A stretch of DNA of 38,141 nt from a virus. A program made the translations under genes and the position numbers. Positions within the stretch are counted from its first letter, which is position 1, and each line of letters opens with the position of its first letter. A model generated the notes under the pieces. It saw nothing but the letters and a program-made list of their open reading frames with translations, made no database searches and was not told where the DNA came from. The stretch spans positions 1-38,141 of IMG/VR virus record IMGVR_UViG_3300018426_000061. One strand, 5' to 3'. Of this stretch, positions 24,672 through 38,141 are shown piece by piece.

Positions 24672-26165
24672 ATGGCATATACAATTAACAATTATAACAC
24701 CAATGTATTAACCGTAGTTGAAGACGGTACTATTGATCAGTCAACTGATTTGAAACTAGTAGGTAGAAACTATGCAGGCTATGGTGAGATACAAAATGAA
24801 AACTTTGTATTTTTATTAGAAAATTTTGCAGGTAGTAATCAGCCACCTAGAGCGCTTACTGGACAAATTTGGTATGATTCTAGTAACGGTAAAATTAAGT
24901 ATTGGAACGGTACACGTTGGCGCAATACAGGCGGCACTGAAGTAGCAACCACTGCGCCAGCTGGTCTTAGCGAAGGTGATTTATGGTGGGATAGCGACGA
25001 TCTGCAATTACATGTATATACTGGTAGTGAATTTATACTTGTAGGTCCGCAGGATGCAGGTAGTGGTGTAACACAAATGCAAAGTCGTTTGATTAAAGAT
25101 ACAGGTGGTACACTACATAAAGCTATTGTTGCAATCATTAATGATGTTATTGTTTATATATTCAGCGATGATGCAGAATATACAATTGATCAAACAGCAG
25201 AAAACAATGCAATTCCAAACTTTGATGTTGTAAAACCAGGAGTTACACAAAGAAACACGCAATCAAGTACAAATGGTGTAACTACAAGCGATCATAGATT
25301 CTTTGGTACTGCTAGAAATTCAGAAATGCTAGGTGGATTTTTAGCATCAGCATTTATTCGCGAAGTAGAAGGGCAAACTACAGCACTTACCCAACCTGTG
25401 TCTATAGGCAATGATACAGGTTTATTTGTAGGTGCAGGACAAGATTTAAAGTTACTTGTAGAAAACGGTAACGAAGCTGTAATATCTAACGATCAAGGTG
25501 ATAAAACTGTACATAGAATTGGTAGTACAGATGTATTAGAAGTAAAAGCAGGAGAAATTTTACCTGGCTCGGGTGAAAGTGTTGATATCGGATCTGCATC
25601 AAGAGCATTTGTAAATATGCATGCAGCAAACTTTTACGGATTGTCAGAAGTTGCAAGTGCAATGAGAGTAGGCGGCAACGACAGAGTTGCTAGTGTTGAT
25701 AGTTCTGGAGCAGGCACTGCAAATACTGTTGCAGTAAGAGATTCAAGTGGTAACTTAAATGCTACACTTTTCCAAGGCACAGCTACTAAAGCTAGGTATG
25801 CAGATTTAGCTGAAATGTATACTACTGATTTAGACGGCGATTACAGAGTAGGCACAATAATGACTATCGCAACGCATGGCGATGCAGAGACAACAGCATA
25901 TCAACCAGGTGCTCCTGTGGCAATGGGTGTGATATCAGAAAGTCCAGCATATTTAATGAACAGTGATTTAGAAAATGGTCAAGCTATTGCCCTTAAAGGA
26001 AGAGTTCCTGTGCTAGTTGATGGTCCTGTTAGAAAAGGCGAAAAGATTTATGCGCATGAAGACGGAACTGGATCTACAGACGAAGCAGATCATTTAGTAG
26101 GCATAGCATTAGAAACGGAACTAAATACTGGCGAGAAGTACGTTGAATGCTTCTTAATGGTGTAA
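24672..26165 (+). CDS. Tail fibre-type protein with ADLAEMY-type C-terminal domain
   Basis: The third paralogue, 497 residues. The N-terminal anchor matches the other two: LENFAGSNQPPRALTGQIWY (about 48-67), then a second repeat, GDLWWDSDDLQLHVYTGSEF, ending ILVGPQD. The shaft segment is short. From about residue 350, DSSGNLNATLFQGTATKARY leads into ADLAEMYTTD and a compact beta domain (YRVGTIMTIATHG, VAMGVISESPAYLMN, ALKGRVPVLVDGPVRKGEKI, ending YVECFLMV). This C-terminal unit is common in marine phage fibres and recalls the self-cleaving chaperone domains (Peptidase_G2 type) that help fibres trimerise and are then removed. Whether it cleaves here is unknown. The gene has its own late promoter element, unlike the second fibre gene. 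Confidence 0.8.
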   Translation: MAYTINNYNTNVLTVVEDGTIDQSTDLKLVGRNYAGYGEIQNENFVFLLENFAGSNQPPRALTGQIWYDSSNGKIKYWNGTRWRNTGGTEVATTAPAGLSEGDLWWDSDDLQLHVYTGSEFILVGPQDAGSGVTQMQSRLIKDTGGTLHKAIVAIINDVIVYIFSDDAEYTIDQTAENNAIPNFDVVKPGVTQRNTQSSTNGVTTSDHRFFGTARNSEMLGGFLASAFIREVEGQTTALTQPVSIGNDTGLFVGAGQDLKLLVENGNEAVISNDQGDKTVHRIGSTDVLEVKAGEILPGSGESVDIGSASRAFVNMHAANFYGLSEVASAMRVGGNDRVASVDSSGAGTANTVAVRDSSGNLNATLFQGTATKARYADLAEMYTTDLDGDYRVGTIMTIATHGDAETTAYQPGAPVAMGVISESPAYLMNSDLENGQAIALKGRVPVLVDGPVRKGEKIYAHEDGTGSTDEADHLVGIALETELNTGEKYVECFLMV

Positions 26166-26171
26166 TAAAAC

Positions 26172-27131
26172 ATGGCAGTTACAGCAGGATCAAATATTAC
26201 CGCAGCTGACTACGAAGCGTTGCGAGCAAAAGCCGATAGGGTTTTTGGTGAACCGTCTGGATCATGGACAACAGGATCAATTGGCACTACAGCAGGTTAT
26301 AACCAATCATCAGAGGCACCTGTTAGACTACCTAATGAAAATATTACCGCAGCAGATTGGAATAAACTTCGCAGTGACATAGTAAAGTCGTATTTCCATA
26401 TTTTTGGAAGTGCACCGTCTTTAGATGAAATAGCAGTAGGCGAAACTATTGATGCAGCAACTTACAATGCTTTTGAAAATATTGCAGACATCAATATTAA
26501 TAACAGAAATACTGTAGCTGCTACACAAAGAAGTTTGTCTAACGCAACTACTGGTTCATTAACAACAGCCTGGAATGGTGGACAAGTTCATGCATTTACC
26601 ATGACATGGGATAACGAAAATCATAAAAAAGGCTGGATCAATGCCGGAGGTACTTTGCGGTTTAGCGCTTCGGCTTCTTACACAGGATCAGATAGAAAAA
26701 GCAACGACTGGAAAACTATCATAAACAATGTTGGTGTAATAGAAATAAACAACTTGAGTATGACAGAAACCGGTAGTGGTTCTTTATCTATATCACAAAG
26801 CGGTCCGTCATATAACGGCTGGTGGTATATAGATGGACTTAGTTTGAACACAGCACAAACTGTATATACAACTAGCGGTGCAGATCATTACGATTACAGT
26901 GGTTATGACGAAAACTTTTATGAAATTAAGGTGATTAAAAGATCAACCACACAATATGAATTCCAAGTTGTAGTAAATGATCTTGATGACGGACTTCCTG
27001 GCATTGATTCTGATGTACAAACTGATATTACAAGTACTGTACAAGTGTTTACGGCATCTGGATCCAATGTAGCACTAGATATTCCAACTTTTGCGGAGAA
27101 AACACCTACTAACACATTTAACTATACATAA
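26172..27131 (+). CDS. Putative tail protein with threefold helical repeat (paralogue A)
   Basis: A 319-residue protein paralogous to the next gene. The N-terminal third has three copies of a short unit, I-T-A-A-x-(Y/W)-x-x-L: NITAADYEALRAKADRVFG (about 8-26), NITAADWNKLRSDIVKSYF (about 57-75) and TIDAATYNAFENIADININN (about 92-111). After this comes a beta-rich domain with a matching signature in both paralogues, TWDNENHKKGWINAGGTLRF (about 149-168), then NDWKTIINN and, near the end, YDENFYEIKVIKRSTTQYEF and FQVVVNDLDDG. No enzyme motif or signal peptide is seen. I do not recognise a named family. Position directly after the fibre genes suggests a virion surface or fibre-tip component. No clear ribosome binding site precedes the ATG. 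Confidence 0.72.
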   Translation: MAVTAGSNITAADYEALRAKADRVFGEPSGSWTTGSIGTTAGYNQSSEAPVRLPNENITAADWNKLRSDIVKSYFHIFGSAPSLDEIAVGETIDAATYNAFENIADININNRNTVAATQRSLSNATTGSLTTAWNGGQVHAFTMTWDNENHKKGWINAGGTLRFSASASYTGSDRKSNDWKTIINNVGVIEINNLSMTETGSGSLSISQSGPSYNGWWYIDGLSLNTAQTVYTTSGADHYDYSGYDENFYEIKVIKRSTTQYEFQVVVNDLDDGLPGIDSDVQTDITSTVQVFTASGSNVALDIPTFAEKTPTNTFNYT

Positions 27132-27140
27132 GGATTCAAA

Positions 27141-28088
27141 ATGGCTAAAAGTGCAGGTGATAAAATTGGACAAGCGGAATACAACGCTTTATATGTAAAA
27201 GTTACACAAGTAAGAGGTGCTCCTGCCGATGTTACAGATGATACAACAGCGTATGGCTGGAACATTACTGGTTCTGCTTTATCTCGTGTAGTAGGTGATA
27301 AAGTCACTGCTGCTGATTGGAATAATATAAGAACTGACATTATAAATGCTCACGATCATATTACAAATTCTACTTCAACATCTCCTGCTATAGCTGTTTT
27401 GTCAGCTGGTGATGATATTACAGCAAGTCAGTATAATAACATGGAAACTATTAGTGATTTTAATTATATTAATAGATTCAACGCTCACAGCACACATTTG
27501 TCAAGCTCAACAGGATTAACAGCAACGCTAACGCCAACGTGGAACGGCACAAAGACACTGTCAATAACAGCAGCTTGGACTAGCAAAACACATAAGCTCC
27601 AATTTTGGAACGCAGGCGGAATATTTAGATTCTCGTTTGGCGGAGCAAACGCAGGCGCTGGAAACAAGGATCAAGACTGGTTAGGTGCTCTTAACGGATT
27701 TGGCACTGCTAACTTAACAGGTTATATTGTTAGTACAGATGGTCCTGCTTCAACAGTGTATGATACTAGAGACTTTTATTACTTGCTTGGCAATTCTGAT
27801 GCTAGCACTATTCGTACAATAATTAAAATGGATTTAGCGGATGTTAATCCAGCTTATTCGCAGTATGACGAAAACTATATAAGAGTAAGAGCATATCACG
27901 TAAGTGACACACAAATGACATTTCAGTTACAAGTTGTTGATGCGGACACAGGTGACCAAACAGGCACAGGACCAGCAGAAGACGAGGATGTTACAGTAGA
28001 TGTTACAGGTACTTTAACAGTGCTTACACCCAACAGTAACGTTGTTAGTGTAGCAGTGCCTACATTTACTTCGGGAGGCTGGACATAA
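27141..28088 (+). CDS. Putative tail protein with threefold helical repeat (paralogue B)
   Basis: A 315-residue paralogue of the preceding gene with the same layout. The repeat units are KIGQAEYNALYVKVTQVRG (about 8-26), KVTAADWNNIRTDIINAHD (about 54-72) and DITASQYNNMETISDFNYIN (about 92-111). The beta domain carries AWTSKTHKLQFWNAGGIFRF, aligned with the other copy's GWINAGGTLRF, then KDQDWLGALN, YDENYIRVRAYHVSDTQMTF and FQLQVVDADTG. AAGGA lies seven bases before the ATG. Similarity between the two copies is moderate and covers their whole length, so this is an old tandem duplication. It is the last gene of the structural block; a sigma70-type promoter starts five bases after its stop. Confidence 0.73.
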   Translation: MAKSAGDKIGQAEYNALYVKVTQVRGAPADVTDDTTAYGWNITGSALSRVVGDKVTAADWNNIRTDIINAHDHITNSTSTSPAIAVLSAGDDITASQYNNMETISDFNYINRFNAHSTHLSSSTGLTATLTPTWNGTKTLSITAAWTSKTHKLQFWNAGGIFRFSFGGANAGAGNKDQDWLGALNGFGTANLTGYIVSTDGPASTVYDTRDFYYLLGNSDASTIRTIIKMDLADVNPAYSQYDENYIRVRAYHVSDTQMTFQLQVVDADTGDQTGTGPAEDEDVTVDVTGTLTVLTPNSNVVSVAVPTFTSGGWT

Positions 28089-28092
28089 TTTC

Positions 28093-28120
28093 TTGACACT
28101 ACAGTAAAAGTCTGTATAAT
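28093..28120 (+). promoter_or_regulatory. Perfect sigma70-type promoter heading the accessory cassette
   Basis: TTGACA (28093-28098) and TATAAT (28115-28120), both exact consensus, are separated by 16 bases in the 39-base gap after the last tail gene. This is the pattern of T4-type early promoters read by unmodified host RNA polymerase, unlike the GATAAATA late elements upstream. The expected start, about seven bases after the -10 box, falls at or beside the ATG at 28128, and no Shine-Dalgarno sequence is present, so the first gene may be translated from a leaderless message. Confidence 0.75.
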
Positions 28121-28127
28121 TAATAGT

Positions 28128-28451
28128 ATGGACGAAAAACTTTTGAATGCCCTAGAAGTAGGTAAATTACTAGATACTGTTAACAGGCACAAAAAACTTT
28201 TATATGATCAGTACATAGAAGATTCTACTCTATACTACAATGGCGGTCGGTTTGTTGCAGATGCTCAATTAATTAGTTTTATTACAGGAAGTGATCCAAA
28301 GCTTATACTTGACCAAAATAACATTCCTATAGAGATTACCGATACAGAAGACTTTATAACCAAGATTATTTCGCAATATCAAACTGCAATTGCTAAGTAT
28401 CACTCGCGATATACAGAAATATCTAAAACTATAAGGGATAACAGTGTCTAA
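28128..28451 (+). CDS. Small uncharacterised protein, first gene of the accessory cassette
   Basis: A 107-residue, charged, probably largely helical protein that I do not recognise. Seen are an N-terminal helix, MDEKLLNALEVGKLLDTVNR, a short central turn, YYNGGRFVADAQLISFI (about 37-53), and a C-terminal helix, FITKIISQYQTAIAKYHSRY. There is no signal peptide, membrane segment or zinc motif. The ATG begins about seven bases after a perfect TATAAT box and has no ribosome binding site. The stop overlaps the following glycosyltransferase gene by eight bases, so the two are probably translated together. It could be a small regulator or a partner of the glycosyltransferases; nothing decides this. 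Confidence 0.7.
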   Translation: MDEKLLNALEVGKLLDTVNRHKKLLYDQYIEDSTLYYNGGRFVADAQLISFITGSDPKLILDQNNIPIEITDTEDFITKIISQYQTAIAKYHSRYTEISKTIRDNSV

Positions 28452-29268
28452 CGGTGTTTTATTATTTGCCCATAATAACAATGTTGTTGACTATGTAGCA
28501 CAAGCAGTCTTCTGCGCAAAACGTGTAAAAGAATACATGCACTTACCAGTAAGTATTGTTACTGACGCTACAGATTTTGTTGGTGCAGAAGTGTTCGATA
28601 AGGTTATTTTTAAAGAAGTAGATAACGCAAAAAACTTTAAATTATTTAAAGACAGTGATAAAGCAAGCGAGCGTGACAATTGGTATAATACTGACAGATT
28701 TCATGCTTATAGATTAACTCCTTACGAGCAAACTATTGTCATGGATACAGATTTTATTGTATCTAACAATAATTTGAATAATCTATTTGAGTCTAATAAG
28801 AGCTTTGCTTGTTCTAAAAAACATACAGGCATTCACACAGCAACACAAGAATCTACTGTAGATAAAATATCTATAAACAGTATTCCAATGTATTGGGCCA
28901 CAGTAATGTTTTTTAAAAAATCAAAAATTGCTGCTGCTATTTTTGATCTAGTTGAACATATACATGATAATTGGCTTTGGTATAAAAATCTTTACGGCAT
29001 AAATTCTGCAAAGTTTAGAAATGACTATGCATTTAGTATTGCTATACATACCTTACAAAATTTTACAGAAAGTGTAAATGATTTTGAAATTCCTTACACT
29101 CAATATAATTCTTTTGATGTTGACGATGTTGTAGATTTTGATAAAGATAATATTTCTATTTTATCACGCCGCGGACACAATGACTATCAAATTTCTTATT
29201 TCAGCGGTATAAATGTTCATATAATGAATAAATTTGCTTTAGAAAAAATTATAAGTGAGTCGATATGA
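28444..29268 (+). CDS. GT-A-like glycosyltransferase, first tandem copy
   Basis: A 274-residue putative nucleotide-sugar glycosyltransferase. The N-terminus NGVLLFAHNNNVVDYVAQAV and VSIVTDATDF form a Rossmann-like start. LTPYEQTIVMDTDFIVSNNN (about 89-108) carries the D-x-D (DTD, about 99-101) expected to hold the metal and sugar nucleotide, as in GT8-like enzymes. YWATVMFFKKSKIAAAIFDL and FRNDYAFSIAIHTLQNF fit the later helices. It is paralogous to the next gene over its whole length (shared AHNNN/AQNNN, LTPYxQTIVxDxD, FFKK). The start is GTG with AGGG upstream, inside the end of the preceding gene. The sugar and acceptor cannot be told; location beside the fibre genes makes virion or cell-surface glycans plausible. 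Confidence 0.65.
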   Translation: MSNGVLLFAHNNNVVDYVAQAVFCAKRVKEYMHLPVSIVTDATDFVGAEVFDKVIFKEVDNAKNFKLFKDSDKASERDNWYNTDRFHAYRLTPYEQTIVMDTDFIVSNNNLNNLFESNKSFACSKKHTGIHTATQESTVDKISINSIPMYWATVMFFKKSKIAAAIFDLVEHIHDNWLWYKNLYGINSAKFRNDYAFSIAIHTLQNFTESVNDFEIPYTQYNSFDVDDVVDFDKDNISILSRRGHNDYQISYFSGINVHIMNKFALEKIISESI

Positions 29269-30062
29269 ATGGTATTTGCATATTTGCTCAGAACAACAAT
29301 AAAGCTAATTATGTCCAGCAAGCAGTTGATCTAGCGTTAAGTATTAAAAAATTTAATCCTAACGAAAGTGTAAGTATTATTACAAATGATAAAGTTGCAA
29401 ACGATGTTTTCGATCATGTTATAGCAATACCAGATGATGTTACTAGTAAAGACAGTTGGCGAATAGAAAATCGTGCAAAAGTATATGACCTAACGCCATA
29501 CGATCAAACTATTGTTTTTGATAGCGATGTATTACTTACACATAGTACAGAACAGCTTTGGGAAAAATTAAGCAATAAAGATTTGTACTTTACTACAGAA
29601 GTTATAAATCACAGAGGCAATACGATTGTAAAAGACACAATACATCGTAAAACTTTTATTGAAAATAATTTACCTAACATTTATAGCGCTTTTTTCTATT
29701 TCAAAAAGACAGACAAAAATAAAGAGTTTTTCGATTTATTAAAGTCTATTGTAGAAAATTATGAAGAAGTTTATAAAGTAATGACACCTAGCAGTAGGCA
29801 GTATTTTTGTAGTATTGATGTATCCATTGCTATTTGCTGTAAACTGAAAAACATTTCATTAGAAGAAAATTTATGGCCTGTTATACATATGAAAACTCCT
29901 TTACAAGAACTACAAAGAGTAAAACATTGGAGCGAAAGTCTTTTATACTATGCAAACACCGATGGACTATTTGTTAACAATTATAGACAATATGGTATAT
30001 TCCATTATGTAGAAAAAGATTTTGTAAATCAAGATATTAAGGATTGGCTGTGTACTACCTAG
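29265..30062 (+). CDS. GT-A-like glycosyltransferase, second tandem copy
   Basis: A 265-residue paralogue of the preceding gene, joined to it by ATGA. It keeps the same framework: NGICIFAQNNNKANYVQQAV, VSIITNDKVANDVFDHVIAI, NRAKVYDLTPYDQTIVFDSD with the D-x-D as DSD (about 84-86), then LPNIYSAFFYFKKTDKNKEF and SIDVSIAICCKLKNISLEEN, where the second Asp probably serves the active site. The C-terminal part (ENLWPVIHMKTPLQELQRVK) has a histidine in a place where GT8-like enzymes often have a metal-binding one. The two copies are clearly diverged, so they may act one after the other or on different acceptors. This is family-level inference. Confidence 0.65.
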   Translation: MNGICIFAQNNNKANYVQQAVDLALSIKKFNPNESVSIITNDKVANDVFDHVIAIPDDVTSKDSWRIENRAKVYDLTPYDQTIVFDSDVLLTHSTEQLWEKLSNKDLYFTTEVINHRGNTIVKDTIHRKTFIENNLPNIYSAFFYFKKTDKNKEFFDLLKSIVENYEEVYKVMTPSSRQYFCSIDVSIAICCKLKNISLEENLWPVIHMKTPLQELQRVKHWSESLLYYANTDGLFVNNYRQYGIFHYVEKDFVNQDIKDWLCTT

Positions 30063-30559
30063 TTTATAATAATACAACTGGTGTAGTTAATGGTTGTATA
30101 AATCAAAAAGACGAAACAAAAAATCTTTTAGAAATTACTGAGCAACAGTATATTGATTTTATAGAAGGAAAAAATAACTTTGCAAATTACGAAGTTCAGA
30201 TAGTAGACGAAATGCCTACACTACAGGCACGCCAAGTTGAAGACCACCCGGTGGTAATTTATAGATCTACATCACTTGAAGAAATAACATATGTTGAAAA
30301 TCCAAATATATTTGTTACTGTATCGGGCAACCTTATTAGTCTTTCAGTAAATATTGAATATAAACAAGATTCCCAAACACTTTTATACGTGACTGAAAAA
30401 GATAATCCTTTGAGATTTGCAGGTTCAATTGAAATAGATTTAGCAACATTAAAAAACACAAAAAGCAAAACGTTTAAAATTCCTAGTATTGTAGACAAGC
30501 CAATAAGTATATACACAGCAAACAAACAAATCAAATTCGGACTTAAGAATGAACAATAG
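30050..30559 (+). CDS. Uncharacterised protein within the glycosyltransferase block
   Basis: A protein of 169 residues from GTG 30050, which I do not recognise. I prefer this start because AAGG lies seven bases upstream; a TTG at 30044 would add two residues but sits only one base from that site. The N-terminal half is MYYLVYNNTTGVVNGCINQK and YIDFIEGKNNFANYEVQIVD. The C-terminal half (about 90-165) is beta-rich, with VTVSGNLISLSVNIEYKQDS and RFAGSIEIDLATLKN, and could be a small jelly-roll or immunoglobulin-like domain. It overlaps the glycosyltransferase before it by 13 bases and the fusion gene after it by 11, so it is part of the same translation chain. It may be a structural or chaperone partner. 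Confidence 0.6.
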   Translation: MYYLVYNNTTGVVNGCINQKDETKNLLEITEQQYIDFIEGKNNFANYEVQIVDEMPTLQARQVEDHPVVIYRSTSLEEITYVENPNIFVTVSGNLISLSVNIEYKQDSQTLLYVTEKDNPLRFAGSIEIDLATLKNTKSKTFKIPSIVDKPISIYTANKQIKFGLKNEQ

Positions 30560-33185
30560 ATTACGCCCTAAAGATTACGATATTATCTTTTTGAGTTACG
30601 ATGAGCCTAATGCAGACAAAAATTATCATGACCTTTGTACAAAAGTGCCTTGGGCAAAACGTGTTCATGGCGTAGAAGGTTCTGACGCAGCACACAAAGC
30701 TTGTGCAGAGCTTAGTGAGACAGACCGTTTTATAACAGTAGATGCTGATAACATTGTAGATCCAACTTTTATTAATCAAGATCTAGTATTTCAAGATCAT
30801 GTTGATCTTGCAAACAGTGTTGTTAGTTGGAGCGGAAAAAATATTATTAACGGATTGACATACGGTAACGGCGGTATAAAATGTTGGCCTAAACATGTTG
30901 TACAAAATATGAAGACGCACGAAAATGCAGATCCGGACAATGCAGCAGCACAAGTAGATTTTTGTTGGGATATTGAATATTGTCAAGTAGATAAGATATA
31001 TAGCCATGTGCATAATAATGCAACACCTCAGCAAGCATGGAGAGCAGGCTTTCGAGAAGGTGTAAAAATGACTCTAAACGAGGGTGTTAAGATTCCTCGT
31101 GAAAAATTTTCTAAAATACACAAGAAAAACATGGACAGATTGCGTATTTGGCAAACTGTAGGATTAGATGTAGATAATGGTATATGGGCAATGTACGGGG
31201 CTCGTCTTGGCACTTATCTTACAAATTGTACCGACTGGGATTATGTTAATGTCCGTGATTTTGAATATGTTAATAAAATGTGGACTGACAAGTATTCTAA
31301 AATAGACGAGACCGACATTTTATATGAAATGTCTCTCCTTGGAGAGATGATAGTTGATGAACTAGGTATGGATATACCTTTAGAGGTATACAGCGAGGAC
31401 CAAAGCAAATTTTTTAAGTCACTGTACGTTAATCCACCTCGTATTGGTAAAAAGTTTATAAAGGAAGATCGTAGTTTATATGACATTGTAATGATTACAT
31501 ACAATGAGCCAAACGGAGACGAAAACTTCCAAAAGCTACAAACACGTTTTCCTAGAGCGAAACGTGTACATGGTGTTAAGGGTATACACAACGCACACAT
31601 AGAAGCAGCTAAACAAGTAGGAAGTGAATTATTTTGGGTTGTAGACGGCGACGCAGTAATAACAGATGATTTTATGTTTGATTATGTGTCACCACAAAAT
31701 GAAAAAGACTATGTAAAAGTTTGGCGTAGTGTCAATCCTGTAAATGGACTAGAGTATGGTTATGGGGGAGTAAAATTGTTACCCCGTGCATTAACGGAAC
31801 ACATGGACACTTCAAAGCCTGATATGACAACAAGCATTAGTTCTAAATTTAAACCTATGCCAATTGTAAGTAACTATACAGATTTTGCTGTAGATGAATT
31901 TACAGCTTGGCGTAGTGCATTTAGAGAGTGCTGTAAACTAGCAAGTAAAATTATAGATAGGCAAAAATCAGACGAAACTGATGATAGACTAGATGTTTGG
32001 TGTACTCAAGCAGATGGCAAGTTTTCAGAAGCAGTGTTGCAAGGAGCAAACGCAGGTAGGGAATTTGGCCTTGCTAACAGATATAATAAAGAAAATTTAG
32101 CAAAAATAAATGATTTTGATTGGTTACAAAAAGAGTTTGATAAAAGACACACTGCTGAACAAGTAGAAAATATTCATATAGGTTCCGATGCAGACGACTT
32201 TTTTGAACAAGAAGAAAAAGACATTCAAATGTCGTCTAATCCAATAAGGGACTTATTAGATCGTTTTGAATTAATATACGGTAAAGATATAGAAAATGTC
32301 AGACGCATGTATAATGATAAAGACTTGTCTAGTATTTTCAAACTAACTAACAATGACGAATTACGTAAAGCAGTAGTTGAAGAGAATTTACATAGCATTT
32401 TTAGATTAGTTGACTGTGATGAAGATTTAAGAAAAGCAGTGCTTGAAAAAAATCTTTATAGTTTGTCAAGGCTAGTACCAGAGTTAGCTGATGAATTTAA
32501 ATTAATGAATGAAGATACAAATTCACTATGGAGAGTTTTAGAAAAGTATACTAACAGTAAATTTGTAATACCTCTTAAAAAATTAATTAATGATGAAAGA
32601 TTTGATTTAGATTCTCTATCGCGAGGACAACTTCAAAGCAAGTTATGGCTTATAGAAGAACTTAGAAACTTAAATTTAAATCTTAAAAAAGTTTGTATCT
32701 GTGCCGGCTGGTATGGGACAATTGTTCCATTGATGCAAGAGGCAAATATTAATTTTGATTATATTAGAAGTTTTGATGTTGATCCAACTGTTTGGGAAAT
32801 AGCAGAAATAATCAATAAAGATCTTGTAATTGATGGATGGAAGTTTAAAGCTCAAACTGCAGACATACATCATTTAGATTTTAGAACAACAAGATACGAA
32901 ACATTAAAATTAACCGGCGGTAACGAATGGCTTAAAACCGAGTTTGATACTATTATAAATACCAGTTGTGAGCATATATCTGATTTTAATAGCTGGTACT
33001 CACGCATTCCGTCGGGACGATTAATAATTTTGCAAAGCAATAACTATTATGATATTCCTGAGCACGTAAATTGTTCTCCGTCATTACAGGACTTCGGTGG
33101 TACTACTCCGATGGAAACAGTGTTATATGAAGGTCAACTAGAATTAGATAAGTATACAAGGTACATGCGAATTGGATATAAGTAA
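30549..33185 (+). CDS. Three-part fusion: two glycosyltransferase-like domains plus methyltransferase-like domain
   Basis: An 878-residue protein. Domain 1 (about 8-190) and domain 2 (about 309-480) are clear duplicates: YDIIFLSYDEPNADKNYHDL versus YDIVMITYNEPNGDENFQKL, AKRVHGVEG versus AKRVHGVKG, D-x-D motifs TVDADN (about 62-67) and VVDGDA (about 363-368), and NGLTYGNGGIKCWPK versus NGLEYGYGGVKLLPR. A charged helical linker (about 565-690) contains several copies of an L-R-K-A-V-x-E-x-N-L-x-S-I/L-x-R-L-V unit. The C-terminus (about 710-878) looks like a SAM-dependent methyltransferase, with motif I KKVCICAGWYGT (about 712-723), RSFDVDPTVWE (about 740) for the ribose-binding acid, and FDTIINTSCEHISDF. 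The enzyme roles follow from the motifs; the substrate is unknown. It overlaps both neighbours, consistent with coupled translation. Confidence 0.68.
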   Translation: MNNRLRPKDYDIIFLSYDEPNADKNYHDLCTKVPWAKRVHGVEGSDAAHKACAELSETDRFITVDADNIVDPTFINQDLVFQDHVDLANSVVSWSGKNIINGLTYGNGGIKCWPKHVVQNMKTHENADPDNAAAQVDFCWDIEYCQVDKIYSHVHNNATPQQAWRAGFREGVKMTLNEGVKIPREKFSKIHKKNMDRLRIWQTVGLDVDNGIWAMYGARLGTYLTNCTDWDYVNVRDFEYVNKMWTDKYSKIDETDILYEMSLLGEMIVDELGMDIPLEVYSEDQSKFFKSLYVNPPRIGKKFIKEDRSLYDIVMITYNEPNGDENFQKLQTRFPRAKRVHGVKGIHNAHIEAAKQVGSELFWVVDGDAVITDDFMFDYVSPQNEKDYVKVWRSVNPVNGLEYGYGGVKLLPRALTEHMDTSKPDMTTSISSKFKPMPIVSNYTDFAVDEFTAWRSAFRECCKLASKIIDRQKSDETDDRLDVWCTQADGKFSEAVLQGANAGREFGLANRYNKENLAKINDFDWLQKEFDKRHTAEQVENIHIGSDADDFFEQEEKDIQMSSNPIRDLLDRFELIYGKDIENVRRMYNDKDLSSIFKLTNNDELRKAVVEENLHSIFRLVDCDEDLRKAVLEKNLYSLSRLVPELADEFKLMNEDTNSLWRVLEKYTNSKFVIPLKKLINDERFDLDSLSRGQLQSKLWLIEELRNLNLNLKKVCICAGWYGTIVPLMQEANINFDYIRSFDVDPTVWEIAEIINKDLVIDGWKFKAQTADIHHLDFRTTRYETLKLTGGNEWLKTEFDTIINTSCEHISDFNSWYSRIPSGRLIILQSNNYYDIPEHVNCSPSLQDFGGTTPMETVLYEGQLELDKYTRYMRIGYK

Positions 33186-33396
33186 TTTATCTGTGCGAGA
33201 TTTACAAAAAGAAAGTGCACGAGCACTAGCTACAATTGAAGCAACAAATAACAACATATACAGATTCAATAAACAAGCTCATCATAACAGTCATAATTGG
33301 TATAAAGCTGTTATAGAATGGTATATTGAAGAATACGGAGATCTGCCCAGCAAAATAGGCCCGGGTAAGGACATAAAACTAGTGAGTGACAGATAA
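33172..33396 (+). CDS. Small uncharacterised protein
   Basis: A 74-residue product overlapping the end of the fusion gene by 14 bases. The start is a TTG with AAGG about 11 bases upstream; a GTG at 33193 would give a 67-residue version. It is mostly helical by composition: VRDLQKESARALATIEATNN, then a His/Asn-rich stretch, NKQAHHNSHNWYKAVIEWY (about 34-52), and a C-terminal GPGKDIKLVSDR. There is no Cys, signal peptide or membrane segment. I do not recognise it. It lies five bases before the next gene, in the same operon. Small size and position between enzyme genes would allow a carrier or substrate role, but nothing in it proves that. Confidence 0.6.
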   Translation: MDISNLSVRDLQKESARALATIEATNNNIYRFNKQAHHNSHNWYKAVIEWYIEEYGDLPSKIGPGKDIKLVSDR

Positions 33397-33401
33397 ACTT
33401 T

Positions 33402-34058
33402 ATGAGTTTATACAATTATTTTATATTAATAGATGTGCAGTATGATGCTATGCCTACTCTAATGGTACCTTTCCAGAAAACAGTCCAAGATAATTTTTTA
33501 AGAATATTAGGCTTTATACAGGAATGCAAATACTGGCAATCTTTAGAAAAAACAATCTTTGTATACGCTCATAATTATTCAACCAACCTCAATGATGTAG
33601 CAATATTACAAGACGAAGTTGATGCATATAATAATGATAACCACATACCTAAAGATAGAAAAGTTATAGTTACACATTGCAACAATTTAGACGCATTAGG
33701 AAAATTATATCTATCTCATCCACCAAGAAGAAATTTTATTTTAGGCGGCAATATGACAGGTTGTATGATTAATCCAGCGTTAAATTTTAATTATTTTGAC
33801 ATTAGAAAATTTAACGATAATACTTATATTGTTCCTGAATTATGTTATGATCAAGGAGCGCACTCAATTATTCACGTTATGGACGTGTATTTAAATAGAG
33901 GAATAAAAGTAATGAGTTTAGATACACTAAAGTATTATCTATTTGAACAGTCTATTAGGAATAATGGATTTTATTTTACTAAAAAGGAAAACGATTTTGA
34001 TATTTTCATCGAAAATCAAACTTTATTATCTAAAAGAGAAAGAGGAAATAAGTTTTAG
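33402..34058 (+). CDS. Uncharacterised protein with faint cysteine-hydrolase (isochorismatase-type) resemblance
   Basis: A 218-residue protein. Three features recall the isochorismatase-like cysteine hydrolase fold: an opening strand with an aspartate, YFILIDVQYDAM (D11); a second strand, KTIFVYAHNY; and RRNFILGGNMTGCMINPA, whose C121 sits where the family's nucleophile follows a G-x-x-T-x-x-C-V pattern. The catalytic lysine normally found between the Asp and Cys is not obvious; the corresponding area reads KVIVTHCNNLDALGK. So it may be diverged, inactive, or not a member. A strand plus helix follow (IIHVMDVYLNRGIKVMS), then a Lys-rich end. No clear ribosome binding site precedes the ATG. The next gene starts inside this one. 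Confidence 0.62.
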   Translation: MSLYNYFILIDVQYDAMPTLMVPFQKTVQDNFLRILGFIQECKYWQSLEKTIFVYAHNYSTNLNDVAILQDEVDAYNNDNHIPKDRKVIVTHCNNLDALGKLYLSHPPRRNFILGGNMTGCMINPALNFNYFDIRKFNDNTYIVPELCYDQGAHSIIHVMDVYLNRGIKVMSLDTLKYYLFEQSIRNNGFYFTKKENDFDIFIENQTLLSKRERGNKF

Positions 34059-34356
34059 TATAAAGGTAAACGATTATGTTGTAAATAGCTACAAATTTAC
34101 TCGAAAGCAATTTGAATATATTTTAGACAATTGGAATAAACCAGGCGGTGCAGAATTTAGAACCGATAACGGTAGTTGGCTTATCCAACATAAAAAGAGA
34201 GGCCCAAGACCTGAGTGCGTGCCTGCAAGTTTTGTACGCATAACTTTTTGGCGTGACGAACAAAGTTTTGATTACAGAGTAGACTATGATTCTATGATAA
34301 ATATTGAAAAAGAATACTTTTTTCAAAAACACAATAAGATGCACTGGGATAATTGA
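33997..34356 (+). CDS. Small uncharacterised protein, start uncertain
   Basis: The convincing part begins near 34045: KVNDYVVNSYKFTRKQFEYI, then GGAEFRTDNGSWLIQHKKRG, PECVPASFVRITFWRDEQSF and a C-terminal HNKMHWDN. No ATG, GTG or TTG occurs in frame after the preceding gene's stop at 34058. The nearest is TTG 33997, chosen because AAGGA lies seven bases upstream; it overlaps the preceding gene by 62 bases. An ATG at 33964 has AGGA only three bases away, and residues from there look like an out-of-frame shadow. A rare ATA or ATT start nearer 34040 is also possible. It is about 100-120 residues, probably alpha/beta with a beta-hairpin, and I do not recognise it. It ends two bases before the nitroreductase-like gene. 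Confidence 0.55.
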   Translation: MIFSSKIKLYYLKEKEEISFSIKVNDYVVNSYKFTRKQFEYILDNWNKPGGAEFRTDNGSWLIQHKKRGPRPECVPASFVRITFWRDEQSFDYRVDYDSMINIEKEYFFQKHNKMHWDN

Positions 34357-34357
34357 A

Positions 34358-35005
34358 ATGTATAATAATATCGTAGAATTGATGCAAAATTATGTGCATA
34401 ATTGTTTTACATTTACTGATAAAGAAGTAGACGAATCTTTAGTAAATGATATAATAGATAAAATGTATACTTTAGTACCAAGTAAACAAGCAAAAATGCC
34501 GTGGCAAGTAGACATACTAGGCCCTAATCGTTCTGAAGAAGAGAAAAAAATACTTTACAATTGGTCGATGAACTTTGGACATCCCGAAAAAAATATACCA
34601 GCTAGACCTAATCCTCAGAGTGATGCACCCTATATTTTTATTTTTACACCTAGGTATCTTACGGAAAAAGAAATACACTTAAACACAGATCTATCTGATC
34701 AACGAGCTTTTGAAAAGTCAGCTGCATTAGAAATTGGATTTGCAGCATACATGCTTAAAACTTTAGCAAATAGTGTTGGTTTAGATTTTGGATTTTGCGG
34801 ATGTATAGGCAATGCAATAGAAATGCAAAAGTATTATAATAAAGGAAATGATTGGTATCCTGTGTTGTTATGCGGCATTGGATATGGTACATATGAATAT
34901 GATAACTATGTTACTGATTACAATTTAAATAAAGAAATATATTTTGCTCGACCTTCGTCAATTAGTAAGCCAGAGTTTAGTAGAGTGATTTTTAAACATT
35001 ACTAA
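34358..35005 (+). CDS. Nitroreductase-like flavoprotein
   Basis: A 215-residue protein related to the FMN-dependent nitroreductase family, which reduces or oxidises small molecules with NAD(P)H or dehydrogenates peptide-bound substrates. Family-like features are LVPSKQAKMPWQVDILGP (about 38-55), matching the APSxxNxQPWxFxVV element; SDAPYIFIFTPRYLT; ALEIGFAAYMLKTLANSVGL (about 125-145) followed by DFGFCGCI, the usual helix and strand at the dimer/FMN site; and YPVLLCGIGYGTYE near the end. The usual N-terminal R-R-S-x-R flavin-phosphate motif is missing, so cofactor binding may differ. I start at ATG 34358 rather than the in-frame upstream ATG at 34304, which would overlap the preceding gene by 53 bases. 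Adjacent radical SAM genes suggest a shared pathway. Confidence 0.65.
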   Translation: MYNNIVELMQNYVHNCFTFTDKEVDESLVNDIIDKMYTLVPSKQAKMPWQVDILGPNRSEEEKKILYNWSMNFGHPEKNIPARPNPQSDAPYIFIFTPRYLTEKEIHLNTDLSDQRAFEKSAALEIGFAAYMLKTLANSVGLDFGFCGCIGNAIEMQKYYNKGNDWYPVLLCGIGYGTYEYDNYVTDYNLNKEIYFARPSSISKPEFSRVIFKHY

Positions 35006-35012
35006 TTAGTAT

Positions 35013-36092
35013 ATGTATCAATATGATCAAATTAAAACTATTCATCTAGAGAATACACAGAAATGTCAAGCTAGTTGTCCTATGTGTGACCGTAATCAAA
35101 ATGGCGGCGCTTTAAATCCACATATTAATTTAAGTGAGCTTACAATAGACGATTGTAAGCGTATTTTTGAACCTGAATTTATTGCACAACTTAAAACAAT
35201 GTACATGTGTGGCAATTTAGGCGATCCTATTGTAGCACGTGACACATTAGAAATTTTTAAATATTTTAGGCAACATAATTCTAATATGTGGCTAAGTATG
35301 AATACAAACGCAGGAGCAAGAGATGAAACGTGGTGGCAAGAACTCGCAAGTACCTTTGGCCGCATGGGGGCTGTTATTTTTAGCGTTGATGGTTTATCTG
35401 ACACTAATCATATATATCGTCAAGGGGTAGTATGGGAACATGTTGAACGTAGCATGCGAGCTTTTACAAAAGCTGGCGGACGTGCAAGGTGGGATTTTTT
35501 AATATTTGAACATAATCAACATCAAGTAGACGAAGCTAAAGCGTTAAGTGAAGAGTTAGGTTTTGAAAAATTCGTAGCAAAAAAGACAGGTCGTTTTGTG
35601 AATGCCAACAGCGAGAAAAAAGACAAGCATCAAGCAGTGAATCGCAAAGGTAAATCAACAGCAGAATTAAAGCAGCCAGATAAAAAATATAGAAATAAAG
35701 CAGTAAGCGAAATAGATCAAGTAATATCTAAACACGGTGATATGGAAAATTACTATGACAAAACACCAATAATTTGTAAAGTAAAAGACGAAGGTAATTT
35801 ATATATCACAGCAGAAGGGTTAGCTTTACCTTGTTGTTGGACTGCTGGACGTATGTATAAATGGTGGCACAAAGATCCTAAAGTAGAACAAATATGGGAC
35901 TTTATTGACGGTGCCGGCGGCAAGGATGCATTAAATGCAAAAACACACGGTTTAAAAGCTATATTTGATACTGGTATCTTTGATAATATAGAAAATAGTT
36001 GGCAAAAATCTAGTGTGAAAGAAGGTAAGTTAAAAGTTTGTGCTATGAAGTGCGGAGCCGAGTTTGATCCTTTTGGTGCGCAATTCAAATAA
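35013..36092 (+). CDS. Radical SAM enzyme with SPASM-like C-terminus
   Basis: A 359-residue radical SAM protein. C18, C22 and C25 in KCQASCPMCDRN form the C-x3-C-x2-C motif that binds the [4Fe-4S] cluster and SAM. MYMCGNLGDPIVARDTLEIF takes the place of the usual GGEP SAM-binding motif, and GAVIFSVDGLSDTNHIYRQG fits the later barrel strands. The C-terminal part has cysteines in a SPASM/twitch-like pattern, GLALPCCWTAGRMYKWW, and later VCAMKCGAEFD, for an auxiliary cluster. Such enzymes typically modify peptides, sugars or tRNA, generating a 5'-deoxyadenosyl radical. A lysine-rich insertion (about 190-235, ANSEKKDKHQAVNRKGKS) separates the barrel from the C-terminal domain. It starts eight bases after the nitroreductase-like gene. 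The substrate is unknown. Confidence 0.85.
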   Translation: MYQYDQIKTIHLENTQKCQASCPMCDRNQNGGALNPHINLSELTIDDCKRIFEPEFIAQLKTMYMCGNLGDPIVARDTLEIFKYFRQHNSNMWLSMNTNAGARDETWWQELASTFGRMGAVIFSVDGLSDTNHIYRQGVVWEHVERSMRAFTKAGGRARWDFLIFEHNQHQVDEAKALSEELGFEKFVAKKTGRFVNANSEKKDKHQAVNRKGKSTAELKQPDKKYRNKAVSEIDQVISKHGDMENYYDKTPIICKVKDEGNLYITAEGLALPCCWTAGRMYKWWHKDPKVEQIWDFIDGAGGKDALNAKTHGLKAIFDTGIFDNIENSWQKSSVKEGKLKVCAMKCGAEFDPFGAQFK

Positions 36093-36101
36093 GTACTGCA
36101 T

Positions 36102-37511
36102 ATGAACGAGACAAAATATCCATCTGACACTTTTTGCATTTTACCGTGGGTACACTTGAGTACACGACCCGACGGTAGTATGCGTGTTTGCTGTACAGCA
36201 AATGCAAGTAGTGTTGGGCCTACTAATGATAAAGAGCACGGCGGTCAAGTAGGCATTCTTAAAACTGAAGATGGCAAACCAAACAATCTTAATGTAAGTG
36301 ATATTTTAAGTAGTTGGAACAGCACATATATGAAAAATGTGCGTAAGCAAATGCTTAATGGCGAAGTTCCGTCGAGTTGTGTAAAGTGTTTTAAGGAAGA
36401 AGCAGCAGGTCATCGCAGTAAGCGTCAGTGGGAAACACACTATTGGAGTCAAAGAGTAGATGTTGATAAACTTATAGAAGAAACTCTTGATGATGGCAGT
36501 GTGCCGCCGCAGTTAGCATATATTGACTTACGTTTTGGCACAAAATGTCAATTAGCATGTGTAATGTGTTCACCACATGACAGTAGCGGATGGATAAAAG
36601 ATTATAAAGCGATCTTTCCTGAAGTAGAAAATGCAAGTCTAAAAACTACTATGCAATGGAAAGACAAAGGCAGTTATAACGGCAGCAGTTATAACTGGCA
36701 CAAACAAAATCCTGTGTTTTGGGAACAATTTTACGATCAAATTCCTAACATGCAGCAGATATATTTTGCCGGCGGCGAAAGTCTAATTATCGAAGAGCAC
36801 TACGAAATACTAGAAGAATGCATACGACAAGGTCATGCAAAAAATCTCGAGTTGCGCTATAATTCAAATGGTGTTGAATGGCGGGATGATTTGTTTGATT
36901 TATGGAAAGAGTTCAAACTTGTAAGATTTCATTACAGTGTTGATAGCATACATGAAATGAATGACTATATACGTTACCCAAGTCAATGGAGTCGTACTGA
37001 AGAAGTATTTAGAATATTAGACGAGCAAACAGGCGACAATGTAGAAATAACAGTTGCATGTGCAGTACAAGCACTTAATGTTTATTATCTTCCTGATTTT
37101 ATAAAATGGAAAGTTACCCAAGGGTATAACAAAATAAACATGTGGCCGTTTGGTGCAGGCGGCATAAACTATCATTTTGTTTATCACCCACCGCACTTAA
37201 ATGTAAAAGTTTTGCCAGAATGGTTTAAAGCAGAATGTCGTAAGAAATACGAAGATTTTTATCCTTGGTGGGAAGCTAACTGGAAAAAAAGTATACCTGC
37301 TTGGCACAAAGGTAAAGTAGAATATGAGCAATGGCGTGATGCCGATTACGGCATAAAACGATTAGAAGGTATGTTGCAGTTTATGGAAAGTGAAGATTGG
37401 AGTGTTCGACTTCCTGAAACAAAAGAATTTATCGAATTATGCGATAAGCAGCGTGGACTCAACTGGAAAACAGTATTTCCGGAAATGAAAGATATTTTTA
37501 AAGGACTTTGA
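36102..37511 (+). CDS. Twitch-type radical SAM enzyme with N-terminal auxiliary-cluster domain
   Basis: A 469-residue radical SAM protein of different layout from its neighbour. The auxiliary-cluster part comes first: CILPWVHLSTRPDGSMRVCC (C12, C30, C31) and SSCVKCFKEE (C93, C96). The core follows with C149, C153 and C156 in TKCQLACVMCSPHDSS, the C-x3-C-x2-C motif. YFAGGESLIIEEHYEILEEC (about 221-240) is the GGE-type SAM-binding motif, and LVRFHYSVDSIHEMNDYIRY a later barrel strand. Proteins with this order are frequent in T4-like phages of marine bacteria. The chain ends with a Trp-rich region, WWEANWKKSIPAWHKGK, that could hold the substrate. It begins ten bases after the preceding radical SAM gene, and the two probably act in one pathway. 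The substrate is unknown. Confidence 0.85.
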   Translation: MNETKYPSDTFCILPWVHLSTRPDGSMRVCCTANASSVGPTNDKEHGGQVGILKTEDGKPNNLNVSDILSSWNSTYMKNVRKQMLNGEVPSSCVKCFKEEAAGHRSKRQWETHYWSQRVDVDKLIEETLDDGSVPPQLAYIDLRFGTKCQLACVMCSPHDSSGWIKDYKAIFPEVENASLKTTMQWKDKGSYNGSSYNWHKQNPVFWEQFYDQIPNMQQIYFAGGESLIIEEHYEILEECIRQGHAKNLELRYNSNGVEWRDDLFDLWKEFKLVRFHYSVDSIHEMNDYIRYPSQWSRTEEVFRILDEQTGDNVEITVACAVQALNVYYLPDFIKWKVTQGYNKINMWPFGAGGINYHFVYHPPHLNVKVLPEWFKAECRKKYEDFYPWWEANWKKSIPAWHKGKVEYEQWRDADYGIKRLEGMLQFMESEDWSVRLPETKEFIELCDKQRGLNWKTVFPEMKDIFKGL

Positions 37512-37512
37512 T

Positions 37513-38141
37513 ATGGTTGTAAATGAATATTTAAGAGAGCATTATATGCTACCGATGGATCATCCTATTGCAGTAGAGAACATGCGTAGACATATATCTA
37601 AAGCAGAACTTTATGATGATGTGTTTACAAAAGATGAGCTAGACGACATATGGAAACAATGTTTTAGATCTAATAGACAGCCTCGCATGAATAGAAATGG
37701 CACTGTTTTAGTAGCTGGCGATTTACAAGAAATATATTTTCAATATAAAGAACGTATTGATAGTCTTTTGGGGCCTAAGGCAGAACAATCACCTAGCATA
37801 GGCGGAAATTATTTTATTACACCACAGCAGTATGGCTTGCATAACGATAGTATACGTCCTGAAGATTTTGAGAATACTTACAAGTGGACGCCTTTGAATC
37901 ACGAACGTCGAAAATATACAACATGGAAAAACTTTCTAATGCCACTATGGATTGGCACTCACCATGACGAAGTTGATGGAGGTCAAATAGCTTTCTTTGA
38001 CCAAAGGCATATTGACTGGGCACACGTATATAACGGCGGCGCTCTTGTTCCTAACATAGCAAGTGTTTATAAAATATCGACAGATTACACAGACTTACAA
38101 TTCCATGATGGCAACGGAAATGCTATACCTAAAGAAAACAA
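37513..38141 (+). CDS. 2OG-Fe(II) oxygenase-like protein (3' end outside window)
   Basis: An open frame from ATG 37513, one base after the radical SAM stop, runs 209 codons off the window end. ITPQQYGLHNDSIRP holds a candidate H-x-D iron-binding pair (H110, D112). GGQIAFFDQRHIDWAHVYNG (about 156-175) corresponds to the strand after it in iron/2-oxoglutarate oxygenases of phages. The second iron ligand and the 2OG-binding arginine would lie further on; VYKISTDYTDLQFHDG (about 185-200) could be just ahead of or within that part. Family members hydroxylate proteins, nucleic acids, lipids or sugars. The call is based on motif and context, and the missing end prevents a check. Confidence 0.6.
   Translation, partial: MVVNEYLREHYMLPMDHPIAVENMRRHISKAELYDDVFTKDELDDIWKQCFRSNRQPRMNRNGTVLVAGDLQEIYFQYKERIDSLLGPKAEQSPSIGGNYFITPQQYGLHNDSIRPEDFENTYKWTPLNHERRKYTTWKNFLMPLWIGTHHDEVDGGQIAFFDQRHIDWAHVYNGGALVPNIASVYKISTDYTDLQFHDGNGNAIPKEN

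Follow-up and report, generated by a model that had tools for sequence, protein, structure and literature searches.

An ordered radical SAM and glycosyltransferase core with exchangeable cargo behind the tail fibres of a probable marine jumbo phage: a candidate glycan-diversifying island

Directly behind its tail-fibre-type genes, the 38,141-base IMG/VR virus record IMGVR_UViG_3300018426_000061 (the window, meaning the whole stretch of DNA analysed) carries twelve close-packed, co-oriented open reading frames (ORFs), o1 to o12, which run on the + strand from position 28128 to the window end, where o12 is cut. A sequence-only reading of this DNA had correctly described the twelve genes as such a block. 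Comparison with related phage loci shows that o1, o2, o3, o5, o6 and two radical S-adenosylmethionine (SAM) genes, o10 and o11 (rSAM1 and rSAM2), form a skeleton that is fixed in order, whereas o4, o7, o8, o9 and o12 are variable cargo, gained and lost at the junctions. We give about even odds (0.5) to the reading that these genes open an island which lies behind the tail fibres of a marine jumbo myophage, diversifies from phage to phage and would make or tailor an unusual glycan.

Related viral contigs were gathered via relatives of o11, o5 and o6, and 129 loci were compared first. Since these loci overlap and were partly picked by the same genes, the counts are not independent frequencies: o11 was present in 123 loci, o5 in 121, o10 in 108, o6 in 92, o2 in 59 and o1 in 50, as against 12 for o9, 10 for o8, 9 for o12, 6 for o4 and 4 for o7. 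The order tail fibres-o1-o2-o3-o5-o6-o10-o11, followed by a third radical SAM gene (rSAM3) that lies past the end of the window, is kept in over 100 contigs of related marine viruses. By default the core is contiguous, with a 7-bp overlap of o6 and rSAM1 and, in several loci, 8-24 bp between rSAM1 and rSAM2. Spacing varies across the 67 distinct spans compared: o6 and o10 may overlap, in many cases by 7 bp, or lie as much as 2.6 kb apart, and o10 and o11 are separated by about 0 to 7.6 kb. These two intervals contain 161 cargo ORFs, which group loosely into 39 families, the largest consisting of additional radical SAM proteins. Turnover, which was determined for the cargo between o6 and o11 and not for the whole island, is high: among 743 locus pairs with 80-85% identical rSAM2 proteins, 700 have no cargo gene in common when ≥60% identity is required, and at 95-100% rSAM2 identity the common part is about half.

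The earlier idea of one compact cluster therefore has to be given up, given that the cargo genes occur in 4-12 loci and o5, o6, o10 and o11 in 92-123. Nor is the block self-contained: its genes make up the initial 10 kb of a longer, hypervariable island, and roughly half of them are exchangeable. The expectation that the gene set stays together in homologous loci holds for the core, which is linked, and fails for the cargo, which is replaced. A strict co-loss of o6 with rSAM1 and rSAM2 was considered and rejected: the loci in question show one side of a long insert, and one contig has the two halves about 35 kb apart. Absence of these three genes from a locus was therefore not used as evidence.

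Both predicted radical SAM proteins were recovered by profile search. rSAM1 (o10, 35013..36092, 359 aa) and rSAM2 (o11, 36102..37511, 469 aa, with an N-terminal twitch domain) score 31.1 and 36.3 bits against PF04055, above the gathering cut-off of 29.5 bits. By its profile score, o11 clearly belongs to the N_Twi_rSAM family (NF033640, 422.8 bits, cut-off 170, model positions 1-398). o10 is 49-84% identical in most phage loci; for o11, relatives are about 57-99% identical. All 40 loci that show both rSAM2 and rSAM3 have the latter downstream (71-100% identical), and rSAM3 was not seen in 17 other loci with more than 9.5 kb of downstream sequence. A viperin-like defence role was dismissed: rSAM3 and o11 match pVip with E values of 5.7e-11 and 8.6e-6, weak local scores that we read as general radical SAM similarity.

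At least three glycosyltransferases had been proposed, and the evidence for them is uneven. The sequence profile of o3 (29265..30062, 265 aa; 38 homologues) matches Glycogenin-1 (E 2.6e-7, positions 3-105), and in its conserved DxD motif D86 is kept in >90% of sequences and D88 is invariant, which identifies o3 at the sequence level as glycogenin/GT8-like. The only match of o2 (28444..29268, 274 aa), a weak one (E 1.4e-4), was to PHROG 1903, whose function is unknown and which o3 matches as well; o2 is a probable GT8-like glycosyltransferase. The 878-aa o5 (30549..33185) is predicted from its structural model to contain two GT-A-type units (residues 1-304 and 305-534) and a helical C-terminal part with a SAM-methyltransferase fold (566-878). 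This model has a mean pLDDT of 78.7 and a pTM of 0.40, and the packing between its domains is unreliable. Foldseek matched the whole model to the chondroitin polymerase K4CP, a tandem GT-A enzyme (E 4e-5, probability 0.99), but with low TM-scores, and a weak PF13641 match (E 0.007) stays under the cut-off. The methyltransferase-like domain noticed earlier is supported by the fit of the modelled C-terminal part to NodS (VIA Z 15.3, root-mean-square deviation 2.6, 162 residues); nicotianamine synthase, the top Foldseek match of o5, has a low TM-score and serves only as a lead for this part. Many phages encode the three parts of o5 as individual genes, arranged in the same order but with inserts that separate the first glycosyltransferase unit from the second (about 5 kb in locus L145, about 31 kb on the contig of L107 and L026); the window has the closed, fused form. 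Neither o3 nor o5 had a match in the phage collection searched.

Two small proteins complete the skeleton: o1 (28128..28451, 107 aa), which keeps its place in its 50 loci, and o6 (33172..33396, 74 aa). The o6 alignment shows 26 invariant residues and a conserved C-terminal tail with an invariant GPG motif, for which model confidence is low, and the model predicts a three-helix domain (pLDDT 84) without a convincing fold match. Fold matches of o6 to death domains (E 0.66 or worse), an endonuclease PHROG match (E 0.0095) and profile matches in the PDB to designed proteins and antibody chains were all dropped as chance.

The cargo proteins of the window are less well defined. o4 (30044..30559, 171 aa) had no family match in Pfam or PHROG searches. 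The cysteine hydrolase proposed for o7 (33402..34058, 218 aa) is an isochorismatase-like resemblance seen by eye, including a guessed catalytic D-K-C triad, and gave no Pfam match. o8 (33964..34356, about 130 aa) most likely starts where homologues, for example those of family F11, indicate; it overlaps o7 by about 95 bp (33964-34058) in a different frame, and o7 has a GC content of 27.7%. Overlap and low GC together suggest a recent insertion. No direct Pfam match backs the nitroreductase-like assignment of o9 (34358..35005, 215 aa); it stays a candidate by way of a relative with 27% identity, which belongs to an array that includes a PF00881 match (E 1.3e-4), and weak relatives recur in the arrays. 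o12 (37513..38141, truncated by the window end; 298 aa in locus L002) is a candidate 2-oxoglutarate (2OG)-Fe(II) oxygenase by its motif, with H110, D112 and H255 invariant in 10 homologues (HxD...H metal triad), and had no Pfam family match.

The continuation of the island can be followed on related contigs. L002, which is 99-100% identical to the window over o10-o12, goes on with an Asp/Asn-hydroxylase-like gene, five radical SAM genes, of which the fifth is rSAM3, and another hydroxylase-like gene. Some relatives carry inserts of tens of kb, so that the island reaches more than 40 kb in places, and on each of four contigs 19-21 radical SAM matches were counted. A Pfam scan of 136 island proteins from four contigs revealed 53 radical SAM proteins plus SPASM domains, three UDP-glucose/GDP-mannose dehydrogenases, epimerases, DegT aminotransferases, MannoseP_isomer, a cytidylyltransferase, TylF, Methyltransf_14/C-methyltransferase domains and a Trp_halogenase (E 2.6e-66), among others. 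N_Twi_rSAM-like proteins make up 28 of 86 scanned. The earlier view of a biosynthetic or modification locus, as opposed to random morons, thus agrees with the kept skeleton order and with an island that is elsewhere rich in nucleoside diphosphate (NDP)-sugar and tailoring enzymes. Three further genes were noted on these contigs: a 359-aa protein resembling S-adenosylmethionine synthetase by sequence (L220, G001:221379-222458), on a contig with 19 radical SAM matches and absent from the other collected loci; a solute-binding-protein-like gene at the right end of a phage array (L216:1674-2753), one A1 member matching SBP_bac_8 (8e-40); and an acyl-carrier-protein-like ORF (L231, G013:C1:5712-5951), whose contig is almost the same as the window across o10-o12.

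The same core is found on bacterial chromosomes. A genome scan with o11 led to two places, both in metagenome-assembled genomes (MAGs): one MAG carries the label Bdellovibrionales, and the other, called simply bacterium, falls in the same phylum set. NF033640 scored above its cut-off in 124 of 369 Bdellovibrionota genomes, often clustered, and in 0 of 14 control genomes outside the phylum. Bacterial loci with a true rSAM2 (58-63% identical) generally have rSAM1 (38-51%), rSAM3 (at least 56%) and/or o5-type parts alongside, in varying order and strand; o1, o2, o3, o6 and tail fibres were undetected in them. These islands are chromosomal; the one in genome G003 is placed between EF-Tu-like and ribosomal-protein-like genes. 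A tree of 55 proteins groups the phage sequences in a single clade (support 100/98), which stands beside one bacterial sequence among the rest, and the very long outgroup branches mean that the tree gives no direction of transfer. Some genomes of the phylum (G048:C9, G046:C4 and G132:C41; loci L254, L255, L252 and L261) hold up to 10-16 N_Twi_rSAM matches, often in arrays, for whose role we found no account. Small ORFs with twin-arginine-like N termini and no clear Pfam family lie beside bacterial radical SAM islands (L254:18834-19304, L258:13237-13632, L259:439-1014) and are possible exported substrates.

That the core is ordered in phages and linked in bacterial genomes too speaks for a single pathway, and NDP-sugar and tailoring enzymes in the cargo of other phages lead us to infer sugar chemistry. 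The GT8-like o3, the units modelled in o5 and the pelagimyophage precedent described below (PMC7029224) point the same way. In the glycan reading, NDP-sugar enzymes, aminotransferases, methyltransferases, oxygenases and flavoproteins of the cargo would supply a building block that varies, the radical SAM core with its twitch/SPASM domains would perform C-H chemistry on a sugar or a carrier-bound intermediate, and o2, o3 and o5 would transfer the product. The acceptor may be a host surface glycan during infection, in which case the modification could block rivals or re-adsorption, or the phage's own fibres. We lean slightly towards the host surface because the same core exists on bacterial chromosomes without tail fibres. 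More tentatively, the fixed radical SAM/glycosyltransferase core might build a scaffold that halogenase, oxygenases, B12 radical SAM methyltransferases and more radical SAM enzymes, as exchangeable cargo, decorate differently in nearly every phage, giving rise to chemical serotypes of a biomolecule not known otherwise. Such an island would offer a testable handle on N_Twi_rSAM function and on how phages diversify surface chemistry, and it holds a large pool of unexplored radical enzymes.

Several points weigh against the glycan reading. The sugar genes sit in the cargo of other phages and none is in the window itself. Substrate, product and acceptor are putative. Many twitch/SPASM enzymes modify peptides, and some array members match models associated with ribosomally synthesized and post-translationally modified peptides (RiPPs). 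Halogenase and aminotransferase genes suit natural products equally well as glycans. o11 has no PDB relative by sequence, and we know of no reaction assigned to the rSAM2 family.

The best-surviving alternative, which we nevertheless regard as rather unlikely, is peptide or protein modification: the radical SAM enzymes would cross-link or epimerise a small peptide, perhaps o6, or the adjacent fibres, and the glycosyltransferases would sugar the same protein. SPASM/twitch enzymes commonly mature peptides, NCBIfam matches to RiPP or cofactor maturases were found, the locus lies directly behind the fibres, and o6 is tiny, nearly invariant and often in 7-bp overlap with rSAM1. However, o6 looks like a folded three-helix domain with uniform conservation and no leader/variable-core pattern, it is undetectable in bacterial loci with the same radical SAM core, and the cargo elsewhere is full of NDP-sugar enzymes. 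A RiPP precursor role of o6, the one small ORF covered by our precursor check, is therefore not favoured.

It is improbable that the island produces a diffusible metabolite such as an antibiotic, a siderophore-like compound or a signal through halogenase, ligase, aminotransferase and radical SAM steps. The Trp_halogenase, AMP-ligase-like ORFs next to a halogenase (recognised by eye), Asp/Asn hydroxylases and relatives of KedN5- and PhpK-type B12 radical SAM enzymes would fit such a product; yet the ever-present genes are glycosyltransferases and radical SAMs, the halogenase occurs in few loci, and non-ribosomal peptide synthetases or polyketide synthases are not among the Pfam families listed for island proteins. 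Diverse and quickly replaced cargo could also mark a permissive insertion hotspot gathering unrelated genes without a joint function. This explanation is still more doubtful, given the core order fixed in so many contigs, the frequent o6/rSAM1 overlap, the renewed linkage of the same genes in Bdellovibrionota and the strong radical SAM enrichment. Least likely is phage DNA hypermodification, in which glycosyltransferases, methyltransferase and radical SAMs would act on modified bases: known systems use glycosyltransferases and radical SAM enzymes, but the island lies with tail fibres and turns over fast, its core is also on bacterial chromosomes, and the listed Pfam matches, from a search not aimed at them, include no base-modification family.

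The left boundary of the island consists of three tail-fibre-type genes on the + strand (24672..28088; 24672-26165, 26172-27131 and 27141-28088). The ORF at 24672 matches a tail-fibre PHROG; those at 26172-27131 and 27141-28088 had no PHROG match and are called fibre-like by their position and by the sequence-only reading. Fibre homologues (about 23-48% identity) lie upstream of o1 in related loci. The gp6-like baseplate protein of the window has its nearest counterparts in two jumbo phages, SCTP-2 and Atu_ph07, with about 35% identity across 94-95% of the protein, and a gp25-like protein and a 4985-aa virion protein are encoded as well; the window therefore represents part of the genome of a large phage with a contractile tail.

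A comparable island is published, which tempers the suggestion of an undescribed system. The host recognition cluster (HRC) of pelagimyophages is hypervariable and contains GT8 genes, lipopolysaccharide (LPS) genes and radical SAM cassettes (PMC7029224). Like the HRC, the present island is large and hypervariable, sits among structural genes beside tail fibres and combines GT8 glycosyltransferases and LPS-type genes with radical SAM cassettes. In contrast to the HRC, it belongs to another phage lineage, as judged from gp6, has an ordered rSAM1-rSAM2-rSAM3 core with o5 and o6, holds up to 21 radical SAM genes and has its core in common with Bdellovibrionota. The HRC lies between VrlC and gp14, whereas here the giant upstream protein matches the virion structural protein family PHROG 10938, not named VrlC, and the right end is beyond the sequence.

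Large phages with many radical SAM genes are also on record. The phiKZ-related Aeromonas phage 332-Vera, likened here by its description only, has eight in a structural cluster, a number termed highly unusual (PMC12390700), and TARA_ERS488813_N000010 has twelve (PMC5332604); the accessible parts of these two reports mention neither a conserved core nor cargo turnover. The 19-21 matches found here compare with those eight and surround a core of fixed order, which bacterial chromosomes carry as well. Host-recognition islands that combine GT8 and LPS genes with radical SAM cassettes are thus already known, as are phages with eight and twelve radical SAM genes. As far as the open-licence literature goes, in which we found no account of this core (earlier work may exist elsewhere), three things are new: the conserved, ordered core that includes o5 and o6, the quantified turnover of cargo and the presence of a shared core in Bdellovibrionota. 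The N_Twi_rSAM arrays of Bdellovibrionota resemble the phage loci in their clustered rSAM1, rSAM2, rSAM3 and o5-type orthologues and differ in being chromosomal, with no fibres and no o1, o2, o3 or o6 detected. Close rSAM1 or rSAM2 relatives were not found in SCTP-2, Atu_ph07 or Vibrio K566. SCTP-2 has no radical SAM matches, Vibrio K566 has six, and Atu_ph07 has four, clustered near its fibre genes (L212:41855-42913); smaller versions therefore exist in isolates.

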